Assembly: GCF_902810435.1 (NCBI RefSeq)
Contig: NZ_LR778174.1
Coordinates: forward strand, 1,165,501 to 1,229,500
Reading direction: 5' to 3'
Source: Veillonella parvula
Lineage (GTDB): Bacteria > Bacillota > Negativicutes > Veillonellales > Veillonellaceae
Length of the DNA: 64,000 bases
Position numbers and translations under genes: made by a program. A model generated the notes under the pieces. It worked only from the letters and a program-made list of their open reading frames with translations, did no database searches and had not been told where the DNA came from. Each line of letters starts with the position of its first letter. The first letter of the stretch is position 1. Below, piece after piece: positions 7,414 through 19,190 of the stretch.

Positions 7414-8652
7414 TTATCTATGTTTTAATAGTTCTTCAGCAGCTCCTAATATACCAAGCATGGAATGTTCAAACACTAGGCCACCCTGCATGAAAATTGT
7501 ATATGGTGGACGTATAGGACCATCGGCACTGAGTTCAATAGAGGAACCTTGTACAAAGGTACCACCAGCCATGATGATTTTATCTTCGTACCCAGGCATA
7601 TCCCCAGGAATAGGATGTACGTGAGCATCTACAGGAGAATAGGCTTGCATACCTACACAGAAATGCTCCATTTCTTCCCCATTTTTCAGATTAATGGCTT
7701 GAATCAAATCATAGCGATCAGCATTTACCTTAGGGAATACATCATAACCTAGTAACTCACCTACAGCAGCCGTATATACAGCACCTTTAAGAGCTTGTAA
7801 TACTACGTGAGGTGCCATAAATAAACCTTGGAAGAACAAGCGATAACCAGGAGCATATGAACCCATATGATCGCCAAGTCCAGGAGCTATCAATTGATAC
7901 GCTGCATCCTCTACAAGGTTTTCTCTACCAACAATATAACCACCAGTTGGTGCTAAACCGCCACCTGCATTTTTAATGAGAGAGCCAGCCATAATATCAG
8001 CACCAGCTTCTAATGGTTCTTGCAGCTCTGTAAATTCACCGTAACAATTATCTACGAAACAAATCGTTTTAGAGTTTTTAGCTTTTACAGCATCTACAAT
8101 AACCTTAACATCTGCAATAGATAAAGGTTCACGTGTGCTATAGCCTCGAGACCGTTGAATCACTACTACCCGCGTATTATCGTTAACAGCGTTAGCAATA
8201 GCTTCAACATCATAGGTATTATCTTTCAATGGAACCTCAGTATAGGTAAAGCCTTTTTCTACTAAAGAACCACGTACTTCACGAGCGGCACCGATAACGG
8301 ATTGCATTGTATCATAAGGAGCCCCTACGGCATAGATAAACTCTGTCCCTTTAGAGCCATTTCCCATCAAAGAAATTAATGTAGTAGCTAACGCATGTGT
8401 ACCAGAAACAAAATGAGGACGAACGATAGCCTTTTCACCTTTAAATACATAGGCAAATACTTCATCTAATTTTTCACGCCCTACGTCGTTATATCCATAA
8501 CCAGTAGTACCAGTGAAATGATAATCAGATACTTGGCATTCCTTAAAGGCTTCTAATACTTTTTTTGTATTGGCCAATGCAATAGGTTCAAATTTCTTAA
8601 ATTCTGGTTCAGCCATTTCTAGGGCTTTACTGCGTATTTCTTCTAATGTCAT
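7414..8652 (-). CDS. PLP-dependent methionine gamma-lyase-like / aluminium resistance family protein
   Basis: A 412-residue fold-type I aminotransferase-like protein of the PF06838 family (B. subtilis YnbB type). The sequence shows TTGYGYNDVGREKLDEVFA, a glycine-rich phosphate site (HFVSGTHALA) and a likely Schiff-base lysine in AGSLIKNAGGG. The family name comes from old aluminium-resistance and Met gamma-lyase annotations; the true substrate is not established. It overlaps the miaA stop by four bases, so it is co-translated with miaA, and it is the last gene before a terminator. Confidence 0.88.
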   Translation of the reverse strand: MTLEEIRSKALEMAEPEFKKFEPIALANTKKVLEAFKECQVSDYHFTGTTGYGYNDVGREKLDEVFAYVFKGEKAIVRPHFVSGTHALATTLISLMGNGSKGTEFIYAVGAPYDTMQSVIGAAREVRGSLVEKGFTYTEVPLKDNTYDVEAIANAVNDNTRVVVIQRSRGYSTREPLSIADVKVIVDAVKAKNSKTICFVDNCYGEFTELQEPLEAGADIMAGSLIKNAGGGLAPTGGYIVGRENLVEDAAYQLIAPGLGDHMGSYAPGYRLFFQGLFMAPHVVLQALKGAVYTAAVGELLGYDVFPKVNADRYDLIQAINLKNGEEMEHFCVGMQAYSPVDAHVHPIPGDMPGYEDKIIMAGGTFVQGSSIELSADGPIRPPYTIFMQGGLVFEHSMLGILGAAEELLKHR

Positions 8653-9578
8653 GCTAATCCTTCTCTACGGATTAAATCCATAGCTTTATTAAATATAAAA
8701 TCTTTAGATGTATTGCTATCAATATGTATCCATTCTATATATGGCATACGTTTATACCATGTAATTTGGCGCTTAGCAAAGTGACGTGTATTCTTCTTAA
8801 TTAAGTCACGACACTCATCTAATGTTATATTGTCATTTATATAGTCTACAACCTCTTTATAGCCAATACCTTTAAAAGCTTGGCAATCTGGATTCACTCC
8901 AGATTTTATGAGTTGTTCCACCTCTTCAATCAAACCTGCATCAAACATCATATCAACGCGTAAATTGATGCGTTCATATAATTTATCACGATCTCTCATG
9001 AGACCGATAACAGAACCTTTATAGGATACACCATCTTTTGTCTGATTTCGCAACGAATCTACATCACCATGATGCAATATCTCAATAGCTCGATACAAAC
9101 GATGTTTGTCGCTATATTGTATCTCTATATTATGCTCTTTACCTAATGTGAAAGCATAGTCTCGTAAGCCTTCAATACCTTTTGTACTATAGAGCTCATC
9201 GAGTTCTGCTCGCAAATATTCGTCAGGTTTAACATCATTAAAGTTGTAGTTCTCCAATAATGATTGGACATACAGTCCTGTACCACCAGACAGAATAGGA
9301 AGAATATTTCTATCTTTTAATCTTGCAATTATTTCTTTAGCTTGATCTTGAAAAATAGATACCGAATATGAATCATTTGGATCCAGTATATCGATGAGAT
9401 GATGTTTCACCCGATTAAGTTCATCCACCGATGGTTTAGCGGTACCAATATTGAGTTGTTTATAAACCTGATAAGCATCACCAGAAATAACCTCAGCATG
9501 CAGATGTTCTGCTAAGTCCAAGGTAAGATCTGTTTTGCCTACCGCAGTAGGTCCAACGATGGTAATTAAGGGATTCAC
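8649..9578 (-). CDS. miaA: tRNA dimethylallyltransferase MiaA
   Basis: A 309-residue enzyme that prenylates N6 of A37 in tRNAs reading UNN codons. The P-loop is GPTAVGKTDL at the N terminus. SGDAYQVYKQLNIGTAKP and the catalytic SGGTGLY motif follow, as does the C-terminal RQITWYKR. Its product is the substrate of MiaB, which is encoded upstream in the same direction. It overlaps the rsmJ-like gene by four bases. Confidence 0.97.
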   Translation of the reverse strand: MNPLITIVGPTAVGKTDLTLDLAEHLHAEVISGDAYQVYKQLNIGTAKPSVDELNRVKHHLIDILDPNDSYSVSIFQDQAKEIIARLKDRNILPILSGGTGLYVQSLLENYNFNDVKPDEYLRAELDELYSTKGIEGLRDYAFTLGKEHNIEIQYSDKHRLYRAIEILHHGDVDSLRNQTKDGVSYKGSVIGLMRDRDKLYERINLRVDMMFDAGLIEEVEQLIKSGVNPDCQAFKGIGYKEVVDYINDNITLDECRDLIKKNTRHFAKRQITWYKRMPYIEWIHIDSNTSKDFIFNKAMDLIRREGLA

Positions 9579-10387
9579 AATAACTCCTTCATATATACTC
9601 CATAACCTATACGGCTATATTTTCCCCCTACCCATTGGTGAGGTGGATATTTCTGAAAGACAGAACTAAATGGTCGTTCTTTAATAATAACACCATAAGA
9701 GGCAACACGCATAGCTTCCTCCATAATTTTATCATCAATACGACTTTCCACAGTATGTCCACGAAGTGGTTTAAATTGAGGACTATCCTCTACAGGGACC
9801 TCAAACATAGGATCAAAATAAATAATATCTATACTTTCATCTGGTAGATTAGGTACATAGTTTTCAAAGGTATCATAACTTACCTCAATACGACGTAATG
9901 CGTCCGTCACACTTTTCACATTATGCGAATAATGAGCTAAACCATAAGATGTGGCAAGCCATATAGATAGAGAACCTTCTAGACCTTTTATTTTAGCCTG
10001 AGGAAAAGCATAGCTCATGACGATACTGTCACTACCAAGACCAATTGTACAATCAAGAAACGAAAATTCTTCTTTATCAGTTATTTCATTAGTACTTAGT
10101 ATTGTCTGAACAGCATTAATTAAATGATCTCCTTCTCCACGTTGCAAACGTAGTATACGTAATTGAGCCATGGATAAATGAAAGCTATGTTGCTGATTAT
10201 CAGGAAAATGAATAGTTAAGCCATTACCAGAAAGAACAGCAATAAAATCACATGGATGAGCATTAAATAATGCTGGTATAGATAATTTTCCTCTTTTTAT
10301 ATAGGCCATATGCATAGAGGAAGCCAAAGCTTTGGCTTCCTCTTGAATGGCCTCATTAGATTTTTGAGCTGTAGTTAATATATTCAT
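9575..10387 (-). CDS. Class I SAM-dependent methyltransferase, RsmJ/YpiP-like
   Basis: A 270-residue protein with a Rossmann SAM site (LDCTIGLGSDSIV) and the catalytic-type YFDPMFE motif. That motif resembles the DPMFP motif of RsmJ, the 16S rRNA m2G1516 methyltransferase (PF04445). The N-terminal 100 residues are less conserved. It sits between mutL and miaA with one- and four-base junctions. Modification of rRNA is likely by family; the exact target is not shown. Confidence 0.78.
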   Translation of the reverse strand: MNILTTAQKSNEAIQEEAKALASSMHMAYIKRGKLSIPALFNAHPCDFIAVLSGNGLTIHFPDNQQHSFHLSMAQLRILRLQRGEGDHLINAVQTILSTNEITDKEEFSFLDCTIGLGSDSIVMSYAFPQAKIKGLEGSLSIWLATSYGLAHYSHNVKSVTDALRRIEVSYDTFENYVPNLPDESIDIIYFDPMFEVPVEDSPQFKPLRGHTVESRIDDKIMEEAMRVASYGVIIKERPFSSVFQKYPPHQWVGGKYSRIGYGVYMKELL

Positions 10388-15087: not shown

Positions 15088-15888
15088 TCACAGATTCCGC
15101 TTATATTCGTATATTCCCATACGATTATTAAACAAATATATAAACGGGTATAATAATTTATAAACAATAGGTGCTAAGGACAACATACTTCCTGTAAAAT
15201 TAATCAATCCAGTCTGTTTAAGCTTAGGATTCATAACTACAATTTCATGACCGTCCTTAGTTCCCCACTGAAAAGAAACATTCATTTTACTAAGCATATC
15301 ATGTTGTTTAGTGCGTTTCGCCACATATGGAGAAATCATATCAAGATATAACGTAAACTCTTCAAAAGAATCAGTCAGCAAGCCTAAAAACTGCTTCATT
15401 TCATCCAATGTAAGATACATAACTACACCTTCACTAACAAGCAGTAGTTTTCGTCCATTTATCTCAATATTTTTAGTCCACAATTCATCAGTTATAGAAC
15501 TCACTAAATTATGGACTCGTTCATGAGGCTCAAAAAATTGTGTACGTGCTTCAATCACTCCGGCAAAATCGATATTATACCAATCAATATAACCGTTGTC
15601 GACTCGATAAAACATAGTATCTAAACCGGCACCTAATGATACGACGATACAATCTGGATATAGAGATATAAAGTTTCGTATCTCTTCATCGATTACTTTT
15701 GCTCGTCCTAAAATTCCATAATAAGACATCTTAACATCTTTAAATTGATCAAAATCATAATCAATATGCTTTAAAATATCCCAGGATTTCTGATCCTTTA
15801 ATACAGATTGATCTGACTCATAATCTTTCGCTCTTGCATATAGTGTCAATAATGCCGTTTCGCCTACAGCGTTTAAATCAAGTTTCAT
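15088..15888 (-). CDS. Class I SAM methyltransferase, leucine carboxyl methyltransferase (LCMT/PPM)-like
   Basis: A 266-residue protein of the PF04072 type: VSLGAGLDTMFYRV (SAM site), WYNIDFAGVIEAR (acidic loop) and LLVSEGVVMYL. The family includes polyketide and protein O-methyltransferases and the target here is unknown. The ATG at 15888 has AAGGTG upstream. The longer frame from 15951 adds 21 residues without a ribosome site. It lies upstream of mutS after a 228-base gap following miaB and may be a separate or accessory gene. Confidence 0.75.
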   Translation of the reverse strand: MKLDLNAVGETALLTLYARAKDYESDQSVLKDQKSWDILKHIDYDFDQFKDVKMSYYGILGRAKVIDEEIRNFISLYPDCIVVSLGAGLDTMFYRVDNGYIDWYNIDFAGVIEARTQFFEPHERVHNLVSSITDELWTKNIEINGRKLLLVSEGVVMYLTLDEMKQFLGLLTDSFEEFTLYLDMISPYVAKRTKQHDMLSKMNVSFQWGTKDGHEIVVMNPKLKQTGLINFTGSMLSLAPIVYKLLYPFIYLFNNRMGIYEYKRNL

Positions 15889-16116
15889 AGTTACACCTTC
15901 TTTGTAAAAATACAAAATGTAAATGGTGTTCATACCTATGAATGTCTTCAATATACAACTTTTATATTATTTTATTATTATAACACATATGATTTCTAAT
16001 CAGCATCTATGGTAAAAAAGAACATCGCCACCACATGTTTAGCAAACTAATTTTAGATAAAAATTCTAACCTTAGAGTTAACATAATAGTGACGAGTTCT
16101 TTTTGATTCTAATAGT

Positions 16117-17430
16117 TTATTTTACAATACTACCATAACAAACCCATGTTTGAGCTTTATCGATATGAGCTGGTACAGTTTGACCAATTGTTAGGGAGTC
16201 ATCCTTAGGGAATAAAACCATTTTATTACCAGATGTACGACCGAACCACATGTCTTCATCACGAGGACTTGGTCCCTCTACAATAATATCAAATACTTGT
16301 CCTTCCATAGGTTTATTTAATTCATAAGAGATTTCATTTTGTACATCCATCAATGTTTGTAAGCGAACGCGCTTAATCTCTTCTGGAATTTGATCATCCA
16401 TAGTTGCTGCTGGCGTTCCAGATCGCTTAGAGTAGATAAACGTATACGCCATGTCATAGCGCACATCTTTTAATAATTGTAATGTAGCTTGAAAATCTTC
16501 CTCAGTTTCTCCTGGGAAACCTACAATGATATCCGTAGTCACCACCACATCTTTTATTTTTTCACGGCAATAAGAAAGTAATTCTTTATAATGCTCTACC
16601 GTGTAATGACGATTCATTTTCTTTAAAATACGATTGGAACCAGATTGAATAGGTAAATGTAAATGCGTCACAATATTGGATGACCTACCAAGAGCATCAA
16701 TCATAGACTTACTCATATCTTGAGGATGACTTGTCATATAGCGAATACGTTCTATACCAGGAATACCATCAAGAGCATCAACTAATGTACCAAAATCTGT
16801 ACCATCTTTAAAATCTAGGCCATAAGAGTTTACATTTTGCCCCAATAAAGTGATCTCTTTAAATCCTTTAACCCCTAGGTCTGTAACCTCTTTAACAATG
16901 GCCTCTACAGGACGGCTAATCTCTCTACCACGTACATGGGGAACAATACAATAGGTGCAAAATTTATTACATCCATTCATAATAGGTACCCATGCATAAA
17001 AAGAGCCATTTGGTTTTGCCTCTAATTCAGGTAATACAGAGTTATCCATATCTACGTTGATTTGATGCGTATGTCCATGTTGTACTTCTTCAATCATCTC
17101 GTTAATATGTTGAATATTATGAGTGCCTAATACAATATCAATATGAGGAGCTCGTTTAAACATTTCTGCTTGATTTTTTTGAGCCATACATCCTGTGACG
17201 GCGATAATCAAGTTTTTATTATTACGTTTTAGTCTTTTTAGCTCACCTATACGCCCATAAACTTTAGTTTCTGCATTTTCACGCACTGCACAAGTATTTA
17301 GCAGAATTAAATCTGCAGTTTCAACATTCTCTGTTGGTATATACCCAACAGATTCCAGCTGATGCGATAATCGCTCAGAGTCGGCAGTATTCATTTGACA
17401 ACCATAGGTGTAAATATAATAAGACTTCAT
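16117..17430 (-). CDS. miaB: tRNA-2-methylthio-N6-dimethylallyladenosine synthase MiaB
   Basis: A 437-residue radical SAM methylthiotransferase. The N-terminal UPF0004 domain begins with YTYGCQMN and has NTCAVRENA and VTGCMAQ, supplying the auxiliary cluster cysteines. The radical SAM motif is CNKFCTYCIVP, followed by GRE and HLPIQSGS. A TRAM domain forms the C terminus. It adds a methylthio group to i6A37 made by MiaA. A GTAGGAG site precedes the ATG. Confidence 0.97.
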   Translation of the reverse strand: MKSYYIYTYGCQMNTADSERLSHQLESVGYIPTENVETADLILLNTCAVRENAETKVYGRIGELKRLKRNNKNLIIAVTGCMAQKNQAEMFKRAPHIDIVLGTHNIQHINEMIEEVQHGHTHQINVDMDNSVLPELEAKPNGSFYAWVPIMNGCNKFCTYCIVPHVRGREISRPVEAIVKEVTDLGVKGFKEITLLGQNVNSYGLDFKDGTDFGTLVDALDGIPGIERIRYMTSHPQDMSKSMIDALGRSSNIVTHLHLPIQSGSNRILKKMNRHYTVEHYKELLSYCREKIKDVVVTTDIIVGFPGETEEDFQATLQLLKDVRYDMAYTFIYSKRSGTPAATMDDQIPEEIKRVRLQTLMDVQNEISYELNKPMEGQVFDIIVEGPSPRDEDMWFGRTSGNKMVLFPKDDSLTIGQTVPAHIDKAQTWVCYGSIVK

Positions 17431-17438
17431 TCTAACTC

Positions 17439-18314
17439 CTACACTTTAACAATCTTACGTTTTGTTTCAATAATATTCTTAACTTTAATAGACATGCGTT
17501 CAATAGACATGCCGGTAATATATTCAATTTCATTGCGAACAGATTTTTGTACCTGTTGCATCAACGGTTTAACAGGATATCCATGTTCAATAACTACAGC
17601 CATATCAACAACAAGACCGTTTTGACCTTTGTCGCTTTTTTTAAAAGAAATTATACTGGTCTCATCGACACCAGCTACTTTTTTTAACCCATTTCTAATC
17701 AATTTAATAATTACTTCATCGTCAAAAGTGAGTCGACCATAGTAGCTAAAAGCAGGACGTACAACAGAACGTTCAAATCCTTCAGAACCAATTTGACCTA
17801 AGGTATCTTGATCTTGTTTTTTCAAAGTCCTGCGGCGCCACATGGTTTTGATTGGATCGATCAAATACCCCCTAAAGTGTGACTTTAATTCCATAGTCGG
17901 CACAGGAATTATATGTTTACCCTCTTTAAGACGTGCATGTTGTGCCTTTTCAATTTCCTTAGGTGTTGCAACATCTTCTATACGAATATATCGATCAGGT
18001 TCTTGTAAGCCTAAAGCTTTAGTAATCTTCTTAACCATATTATCAGAAGTGCCGATAATCATAAGCTTATTAGGTTTAATCTTATCTAATTGTTCTCGTA
18101 CGGATTTAACTTGTACTTCGTCTTGAAAAATAGCACGACGAACAGCTTTTAAACGACTAGACTCTTTTTTTGCAGAAAAGCCAGCTACAATTTTATTATC
18201 ATGAATCAAAATACCATCATCGATGATACATTCAATTTTATTTTCATGAGCAACTACGAGGGCACGATGACTTTTACCTGTGCCACTACTACCAACAAAT
18301 GCAACGACTTCCAT
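17439..18314 (-). CDS. P-loop NTPase fused to an Asp23/Gls24-like domain
   Basis: A 291-residue protein of unknown function. Residues 8-15 are a Walker A loop (GSSGTGKS) in an N-terminal NTPase-like domain with strands VVAFVG, KLMIIGTSD and similar. The last 95 residues (from about PAFSYYGRLTFDDEVI to EYITGMSIERMSIKVKNI) look like an Asp23/Gls24 alkaline-shock domain, with GLVVDMAVVIEHG in the middle. It is nine bases upstream of miaB and directly downstream of the PHP gene. Asp23 proteins normally lack an ATPase. The role is not known; a link to envelope stress would be inference only. Confidence 0.72.
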   Translation of the reverse strand: MEVVAFVGSSGTGKSHRALVVAHENKIECIIDDGILIHDNKIVAGFSAKKESSRLKAVRRAIFQDEVQVKSVREQLDKIKPNKLMIIGTSDNMVKKITKALGLQEPDRYIRIEDVATPKEIEKAQHARLKEGKHIIPVPTMELKSHFRGYLIDPIKTMWRRRTLKKQDQDTLGQIGSEGFERSVVRPAFSYYGRLTFDDEVIIKLIRNGLKKVAGVDETSIISFKKSDKGQNGLVVDMAVVIEHGYPVKPLMQQVQKSVRNEIEYITGMSIERMSIKVKNIIETKRKIVKV

Positions 18315-18329
18315 AGCCTACCTCGTCAT

Positions 18330-19157
18330 TTATAACAAACTAATAAATTCTGATACATCCTTACCAGATACTAAGTAATCACCAAATCTATCAGGTTTCT
18401 TGCCTACAATACCATGGTAATCAGAACCACCAGTAATAAATAGCTTATGCTTTTTAGCGAATTCTTTATATCGCTCCACATCATCATCATTATGCTTTGA
18501 GTGATATACCTCCATACCATCAAAATCATAATCTAACATTTCCAACACATATTCATCACTGGTAACCAATTTAGGATGAGCCATAACAGCAAGTCCTCCA
18601 GCTTTATGTATAATATCAATAATATAAGGAACCTCTACTTTTACCTTAGGAACATAGCAAGGACTATCTTTTCGAAGAATACCTTTAAATACATCATTAA
18701 TATCCTTGGCATAACCATCATCAATTAAAAGTTTACCAATATGTGGGCGACCATAAGCTTTAGTATCAGGAAATTGTTTAATGAGCTCTTCTTTTGTAAT
18801 ATAATATCCTTCATTGTTACAACGACGGATAATTTCATCGATACGTTCTTCACGTTTTCCTTTAAAAAACGTAATAAAATCGATTAAATCTTTATTATTT
18901 TCATCAAAACAATATCCTAAAATATGAATTGACTTATCTTTATAATCAGCACTAAATTCACAGCCATTTACGATTTTAATAGATTCATTAGGATCTAACT
19001 CTTTTTGAGCAACACGCAATGCTTGAATGCCGTCTATTTCATCATGATCGGTTAAAGCCATCATAGATACATTACAGTCTATGGCATGTTGCAATAGATC
19101 TTTAGGTGTTTCAACACCATCTGAAAAGATGGAATGCATATGAAAATCTACAAGCAT
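18330..19157 (-). CDS. PHP domain phosphoesterase (RNase AM / YciV-like)
   Basis: A 275-residue PHP-family metal-dependent phosphoesterase. Metal motifs: DFHMHSIFSDG near the N terminus, LTDHDEI, a mid-protein HILGYCFD, MAHPKL and TGGSDYHG near the C terminus. This order matches the YciV/TrpH group, which acts on 3',5'-nucleotide bisphosphates and short RNA ends. The ATG at 19157 has GGAGGTG seven bases away; the upstream extension of ten residues is unlikely. It has its own promoter and is first in the unit with the Asp23 fusion and miaB. Confidence 0.85.
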   Translation of the reverse strand: MLVDFHMHSIFSDGVETPKDLLQHAIDCNVSMMALTDHDEIDGIQALRVAQKELDPNESIKIVNGCEFSADYKDKSIHILGYCFDENNKDLIDFITFFKGKREERIDEIIRRCNNEGYYITKEELIKQFPDTKAYGRPHIGKLLIDDGYAKDINDVFKGILRKDSPCYVPKVKVEVPYIIDIIHKAGGLAVMAHPKLVTSDEYVLEMLDYDFDGMEVYHSKHNDDDVERYKEFAKKHKLFITGGSDYHGIVGKKPDRFGDYLVSGKDVSEFISLL

Positions 19158-19190
19158 ATAGCACCTCCATTCCAAATATTCTATCATTTA

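Follow-up and report, generated by a model that had tools for sequence, protein, structure and literature searches.

A widespread P-loop–Asp23 fusion protein family in Bacillota with a possible tie to biotin-dependent acyl-CoA carboxylases

Introduction

What might an Asp23 domain do when it is built into one protein with an ATP site? Proteins of the Asp23/Gls24 family are usually small and stand-alone and carry no ATPase domain. A gene in the window analysed here (64,000 nucleotides of a Veillonella parvula genome) raises this question since its product had been read, in a preliminary description made from the DNA letters, as a P-loop NTPase fused to an Asp23-like domain. Asp23 proteins are abundant and widespread, and the excerpts of two papers on which we draw treat their molecular function as an open question (PMC6954212, PMC5437119). 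We asked whether the two domains are real, how common the family is and what its gene neighbours suggest about the process that it serves.

Results

The gene lies at 17439..18314 (- strand), starts with ATG and encodes 291 amino acids. The open reading frame is real and holds both domains in one protein, as the preliminary description had it: an intact Walker A motif, GSSGTGKS, sits exactly at the residues named there (8-15; 18270..18293, - strand) within an N-terminal P-loop domain (residues 1-160; 17835..18314, - strand), and an Asp23 domain takes up approximately residues 196-283 (17466..17729, - strand). The host genome, a single contig of 2.15 Mb, encodes two further Asp23 proteins about 49 kb away, and the fusion protein is 96-97% identical to that of its nearest named relatives, in Veillonella. 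Judged by its sequence, the protein is unlikely to have a transmembrane helix, because the maximum mean hydropathy over any 19 residues is only 1.04.

The C-terminal Asp23 assignment, for which a HMMER search with PF03780 had been proposed, was borne out by a match over the Pfam cut-off (E 6.5e-10; 39.8 bits against a gathering score of 28). The match covers residues 228-281, equivalent to positions 56-107 of the 108 in the model, and HMMER left the first half of the domain unmatched in the window's protein; the structure model has a helix-strand-strand-helix-strand order at residues 199-282, the Asp23 region. PF03780 also matched all 33 family members checked at E 0.1 or better (best 1.9e-14), the cut-off having been seen for the first member. 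The modelled C-domain matched the C-terminal domain of MamM (Z 11.0 over 77 residues, rmsd 1.7), a likeness to cation diffusion facilitators that reflects a common fold and carries no evidence of metal transport.

Conservation was assessed in an alignment of 117 sequences, many of them near-copies and the window's own gene present twice, of which 58 were left after thinning at 80% identity. Twenty key residues of the ATP site are identical in all 117, and the pattern is not due to chance because G8, G11, G13, K14 and S15 of Walker A, together with D32 and D33, are identical in every sequence; the GxxxxGK[ST] signature of the P-loop NTPase superfamily is therefore invariant throughout. A hydrophobic strand ending in an acid is also present, namely IIDD (strand 29-32 in the model), which we read as a putative Walker B, and the D32-D33 pair at the end of this second strand (18216..18221, - strand) is a candidate Mg/acid pair. 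It is unlikely, on this pattern, that the family is a dead NTPase.

Constraint is much stronger in the ATP-site half than in the Asp23 half: among the 58 thinned sequences the N-domain (residues 1-160) has a mean pairwise identity of 52% with 19 of 160 positions invariant, and the Asp23 part (residues 196-281) has 26% with 0 of 86. The junction between them (residues 178-195) reaches 54%, and E181, P187 and G193 are invariant (segment 181-193; 17736..17774, - strand), as is R128, just ahead of a GKHIIPVP motif (residues 132-139; 17898..17921, - strand) in which H134 and P137 are invariant. RefSeq names a 36% identical relative an 'Asp23/Gls24 family envelope stress response protein'; the current database name is taken from the less conserved half, and the enzyme-like half stays hidden. 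A further conserved segment resembling F-x-GYLxDPLxxFxRR lies at residues 147-162 (window 17829-17876). In the 13 sequences displayed, residues 145-195 carry a net positive charge; the model is of low confidence there, and segment 147-162 might contact a membrane or a partner.

Structure models were built with 18-20 close sequences and are of modest quality (pLDDT 65.7 and pTM 0.52 for the whole protein). A fold search with the whole protein placed GTPase Era first, at a Foldseek E of 3.5e-4 but with an rmsd of 16.5, and because a second whole-protein comparison was filled by matches to the C-domain, the N-domain was also modelled and searched by itself (mean pLDDT 71.5, pTM 0.70; residues 48-61 and 132-161 below 50). 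Its best 50 fold rows were all P-loop NTPases, mostly kinases, at Z 6.5-5.0, all under Z 8 and so below the level that the tool trusts. The lid region of the N-domain model is of low confidence. Polynucleotide kinases of the Clp1/Grc3/NOL9 type headed the list, the top row being Clp1 with Z 6.5 and rmsd 3.6 over 129 residues; adenylate and uridine kinases followed within about Z 1, and GPN-loop GTPases reached 5.7. The Foldseek list for the N-domain, in which no row fell under E 0.001, had a designed ATPase on top, with APS, gluconate, guanylate and dephospho-CoA kinases, AAA+ proteins and SRP GTPases among the others. The N-domain model may therefore be described as weakly kinase-like.

P-loop profiles, which had likewise been suggested as a check, all stayed below their Pfam cut-offs in the fusion protein: AAA scored 16.1 bits (cut-off 21.2), AAA_33 13.2 (cut-off 27) and ABC_tran 18.5 (cut-off 25), so that an identity as ABC ATPase (PF00005) was set aside. 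No NCBIfam model reached its cut-off, and a PDB sequence search gave nothing convincing, the best match being at E 0.049 with the protein as query and at E 0.0035 with the family profile, the latter to an ABC ATPase over profile positions 3-42 only. No known P-loop family claims the N-domain, and its likeness to them is P-loop deep.

This was explored further by hhalign against five profiles, which scored MiaA at 55.9 over 99 columns (49.1 in reversed order), an ABC cluster at 54.0, HprK at 44.9 over 46 columns, shikimate kinase at 42.9 and a DnaC cluster at 40.9; 30 column-shuffled controls each were run for MiaA, HprK and shikimate kinase, and the ABC and DnaC clusters were compared without a control. 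Kinship with MiaA was at first attractive, given the miaB neighbour, the similar order of motifs and the top hhalign score, and the IPT and MiaA models match 19 and 11 of the 33 family members, weakly (best 1.2e-4 and 6.1e-4). We dropped it because removal of the P-loop took the score down to 15.9, inside the shuffled range (mean 15.2, maximum 20.5). HprK, whose model PF07475 matches one of the 33 members (E 0.011), fell to 15.7 (shuffled mean 14.2, maximum 23.5), and shikimate kinase to 15.2, high yet inside its range (mean 12.8, maximum 15.7). All 30 genomes tested carry a true MiaA (that of the window is at 8649-9578), and HprK is separately present over its cut-off in 9 of the 30. Beside miaA in the window, between it and mutL, is a putative SAM-dependent methyltransferase gene (9575-10387, - strand; PF04445, 30.4 against 26 bits). 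In one genome (G499; L196, L198 and L199) the HPr kinase matches are split over three adjacent pieces, each with its own open frame, which would fit either a broken gene or frame errors in the assembly.

Except for the viral, plasmid and control sets, the genomes searched all come from one phylum, Bacillota. The full-length protein as query had matches in 193 of 200 Negativicutes genomes (166 of the 168 more complete ones) and in 273 of 398 genomes of the phylum at E 0.001; many of these lie only near E 1e-4, where other Asp23 proteins would be expected to score. The N-domain profile, with the nine best candidates per genome scored, matched 175 of the 398 at E 1e-10, the weakest match being at 1.2e-47, and each of these genomes has a single copy. 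The matches displayed include no stand-alone N-domain, because every one sits in an open frame 269 residues long or longer; in four genomes of one family (G207, G249, G285 and G362; f43; loci L084 and L085) the stop-to-stop frame of the fusion gene runs to 489-557 residues, and the two of these proteins that were read, from L084 and L085, have G/A/R-rich tails at their ends. The fusion, whose rarity the preliminary description implied, is therefore not rare: it is a common bacterial protein family within the phylum surveyed. In a tree of the 58 thinned sequences, the 20 from Negativicutes lie on one side of a branch with 92/70 support, recovered in 90% of 200 bootstrap trees, which would suit mainly vertical descent. 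The family profile found no relative in the viral contigs and one in the plasmid records (L208 6001-6870), on a 285,641-bp Monoglobus record that may be a secondary chromosome; this relative adjoins rex and central-metabolism genes. Defence-system models gave no match at E 0.01, and the best PHROG match was at E 0.051.

In the window the gene has close neighbours on both sides, as had been described. A PHP phosphoesterase gene (18330..19187, - strand, with a start that may be at 19157; PF02811, 48 against 26.4 bits) ends 15 bp before the start codon of the fusion gene, and miaB (16117..17430, - strand; TIGR01574, 526 bits) starts 8 bp after its stop codon. The best NCBIfam matches of the PHP protein, both below cut-off, were RNase RNM (4e-49) and 3',5'-nucleoside bisphosphate phosphatase (1.5e-47). 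A conserved three-gene unit had been suggested, and this was only partly borne out. Among 49 Negativicutes loci, 30 of which are the best full-length matches and so lean to close relatives (the window's locus included), PHP lies upstream in 44, miaB downstream in 33 and both are present in 31, whereas neither adjacency was seen in 48 loci (45 genomes) outside Negativicutes. Because the 3.8-kb loci extend 1.5 kb to either side of the gene, these counts would miss a more distant miaB. Among the loci compared, the PHP/miaB setting is confined to Negativicutes, and adjacency to miaB is mostly limited to the nearest relatives. Further along in the window, between mutS and miaB, lies a gene resembling SAM-dependent methyltransferases (15088-15951, - strand; TIGR00027, E 8.6e-7, below cut-off).

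Outside Negativicutes the surroundings vary. A first set of 40 long loci, 34 of them from outside the class, contained no neighbour cluster recurring in more than 9, and in 12 of 37 long loci the fusion gene lies on the strand opposite both flanking frames. Three of the 40 (L084, L085 and L112) have no labelled gene in the neighbour table because of overlapping frames. An RNase Y cluster and a SpoVS cluster are each found in L114-L118 (one member of each was tested). Genes for methylmalonyl-CoA metabolism or biotin carboxylases were found in 5 of the 34 loci, and Pfam searches with ten proteins from three such loci identified carboxyltransferase, biotin carrier, OAD gamma, OADA/PYC, mutase, B12-binding and succinyl-CoA ligase domains. 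Since the carboxylase idea arose from these 34 loci, 40 new loci spread over families were then drawn, together with 20 arbitrary control stretches of similar length, most of them 0.5 Mb away from the fusion gene in genomes that carry it. At least one gene of the carboxylase/methylmalonyl-CoA set was present in 11 of the 40 new loci, against 1 of the 20 controls, a stretch with a carboxyltransferase gene.

We placed all PF01039 carboxyltransferase genes (E 1e-30) genome-wide in 110 carrier genomes. In the new set one lies within 10 kb of the fusion gene in 12 of 40 genomes and 10 of 35 families, against 0.52 expected (0 of 200,000 simulations), the expectation assuming a fusion gene placed at random and genomes weighed as independent although the families are related. 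Without the four families behind the idea the count is 6 of 34 against 0.45 (1 of 200,000 simulations); for the first 34 genomes outside Negativicutes it is 5 against 0.44. Narrowing the distance to 3 kb leaves 5 in the new set (0.19 expected), or 2 without the four families. Overall, 17 of the 74 carriers outside Negativicutes have a carboxyltransferase gene within 10 kb, and in the other 57 it lies farther away, on another contig, or is absent; contigs that split the two genes work against the signal. In Negativicutes the count is 0 of 36 (0.37 expected), although all 36 genomes have such a gene. The layout differs between families, with the carboxyltransferase gene downstream on the same strand (G462, G224), upstream on the same strand (G273), divergent (G287, G341) or convergent (G244), which speaks for repeated association.

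The two genes also occur together. PF01039 matches at E 1e-30 were present in 108 of 110 carriers (39 of 40 and 69 of 70; the exceptions are G368 and G516) and in 31 of 70 non-carriers, 24 of the 31 at E 1e-90 or better. The Fisher p of about 7e-18 ignores phylogeny, and the 70 non-carriers are those of 223 that were listed with handles rather than a random draw. Methylmalonyl-CoA mutase (PF01642) is present in 56 of the 74 carriers outside Negativicutes; the carboxyltransferase is the steadier partner, because the mutase is missing in four near carriers (G224, G227, G287, G341) and also in G533, G234 and G462. The gene dnaC recurs likewise near the fusion gene (7 of 34 and 10 of 40 loci, or 17 of 74 overall, against 0 of 20 controls), as do dnaD and aspartate-aminotransferase-like genes, and part of the carboxylase proximity may therefore be an old synteny block. 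Examples of long loci outside Negativicutes with this recurrence of dnaC and dnaD are L082, L083, L211 and L223.

Discussion

The two-domain architecture set out in the preliminary description has stood; its implied rarity has not, and its three-gene unit holds in part. No NCBIfam model reached its cut-off for the window's protein, and among the papers listed in searches of the open full-text literature none dealt with an Asp23-NTPase fusion or with Asp23 in methylmalonyl-CoA carboxylation; within this scope the full-length family has no assigned function. The proximity of carboxylase genes is a first hint at what the fusion may serve.

We tentatively favour, as one claim that joins a carboxylase link to an active ATP site, the reading that the protein is an accessory factor which uses ATP and serves biotin-dependent acyl-CoA carboxylases, because YqhY, itself an Asp23 protein, is linked to acetyl-CoA carboxylase. 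The excerpts of PMC5437119 describe yqhY as the distal gene of accBC-yqhY, report that its loss selects mutations in acetyl-CoA carboxylase and present YqhY as restraining that enzyme. The fusion would then be a soluble protein, and the enzymes that it serves would be carboxylases or decarboxylases, mainly of methylmalonyl-CoA type. Its Asp23 domain would dock it on the carboxylase, by analogy with the way YqhY is thought to act, and its P-loop domain would bind Mg-ATP via Walker A and D32-D33 and adjust the enzyme, most likely by phosphotransfer rather than plain hydrolysis, the target being the carboxylase or a small acyl-CoA or nucleotide-like substrate. The data show the two domains, the invariant residues of the ATP site, a single copy per surveyed genome, and, outside Negativicutes, proximity to and co-occurrence with the carboxyltransferase; we infer the physical link to the carboxylase, the direction of control, the phosphotransfer and the roles of single residues. 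In a bolder version, Asp23 would be a dedicated handle on biotin-dependent acyl-CoA carboxylases, and the fusion would equip it with an arm driven by ATP: a new P-loop phosphotransferase, marked by the motifs IIDDG, AGxSAK, LGTSxxM and GKHxIPVP, through which the activity of methylmalonyl-CoA-type carboxylases and decarboxylases in anaerobic Bacillota is set. This version is conceivable but doubtful. With Asp23 fused to an intact ATP site and repeatedly linked to carboxyltransferases, Asp23 function becomes directly testable.

The same invariant ATP site beside a faster-evolving Asp23 half, and the kinases that dominate the fold rows, would also suit a stand-alone metabolic phosphotransferase without a tie to carboxylases, in which Asp23 is a docking or oligomerisation module and the proximity a remnant of old synteny. 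The absence of carboxyltransferase genes near the fusion in Negativicutes and the recurrence of dnaC, dnaD and aspartate-aminotransferase-like genes are in line with this; the varying carboxyltransferase layout and the strong co-occurrence argue against it, and we regard it as unlikely, though deserving serious weight. We consider it quite unlikely that the protein is an ATPase switch whose N-domain, by binding and hydrolysing ATP, drives the assembly and disassembly of Asp23-domain polymers or of a membrane-associated scaffold. According to the excerpts of PMC6954212, Asp23 of S. aureus assembles into filaments in vitro and is tethered to the membrane by AmaP, and the AmaP model matches 26 of 33 family members at E 0.1 or better (best 2.1e-8; 16.3 bits for the window's protein, cut-off 55), but the Asp23 part has no invariant position and no AAA or ABC model exceeds its cut-off.

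A kinase that acts on RNA or nucleotides, with the neighbouring PHP phosphoesterase working against it and a link to RNA turnover and tRNA modification, would be in keeping with the frequent PHP adjacency in Negativicutes, the nuclease-like and phosphatase-like NCBIfam matches of the PHP protein, the RNase Y and SpoVS clusters and the Clp1-type kinases at the head of the fold list. In the 48 loci outside Negativicutes the PHP/miaB setting vanishes, and the Clp1 rows tie with adenylate kinases within Z 1, which makes this reading improbable. That the protein diverged from tRNA dimethylallyltransferase (MiaA/IPT) or from HPr kinase is very hard to credit, since the top-ranking hhalign score was lost with the P-loop and a true MiaA accompanies the fusion.

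The family can be compared with several known systems. The fusion shares with the P-loop kinases (adenylate/uridine and Clp1-type polynucleotide kinases) a Walker A motif and, in its model, a kinase-like arrangement, and differs from them in having no family match over cut-off, a fold match of only Z 5-6.5 and its own motifs IIDDG, AGxSAK, LGTSxxM and GKHxIPVP. With MiaA/IPT it shares the P-loop and a superficially similar order of motifs, a likeness gone once the P-loop is cut, and its host genomes have a separate MiaA. It has nothing in common with HPr kinase/phosphorylase (PF07475) beyond the P-loop region, where the strand that follows the P-loop helix ends in a DD pair, which presumably parallels the DD motif of HPr kinase. 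MeaB-type chaperones of methylmalonyl-CoA mutase are also P-loop proteins encoded near methylmalonyl-CoA genes; none appears among the Pfam matches of the fusion at E 1, and several near carriers lack the mutase. To the Asp23/Gls24 family (PF03780, DUF322; YqhY, YloU and S. aureus Asp23) it is tied by a C-terminal domain over the Pfam cut-off, and it differs in the extra P-loop domain, some 160 residues long, at its N terminus. In the excerpts of PMC5437119, B. subtilis yqhY adjoins biotin carboxylase genes, accBC; the carboxylase genes seen near some of the fusion genes outside Negativicutes are long-form PF01039 carboxyltransferases instead.
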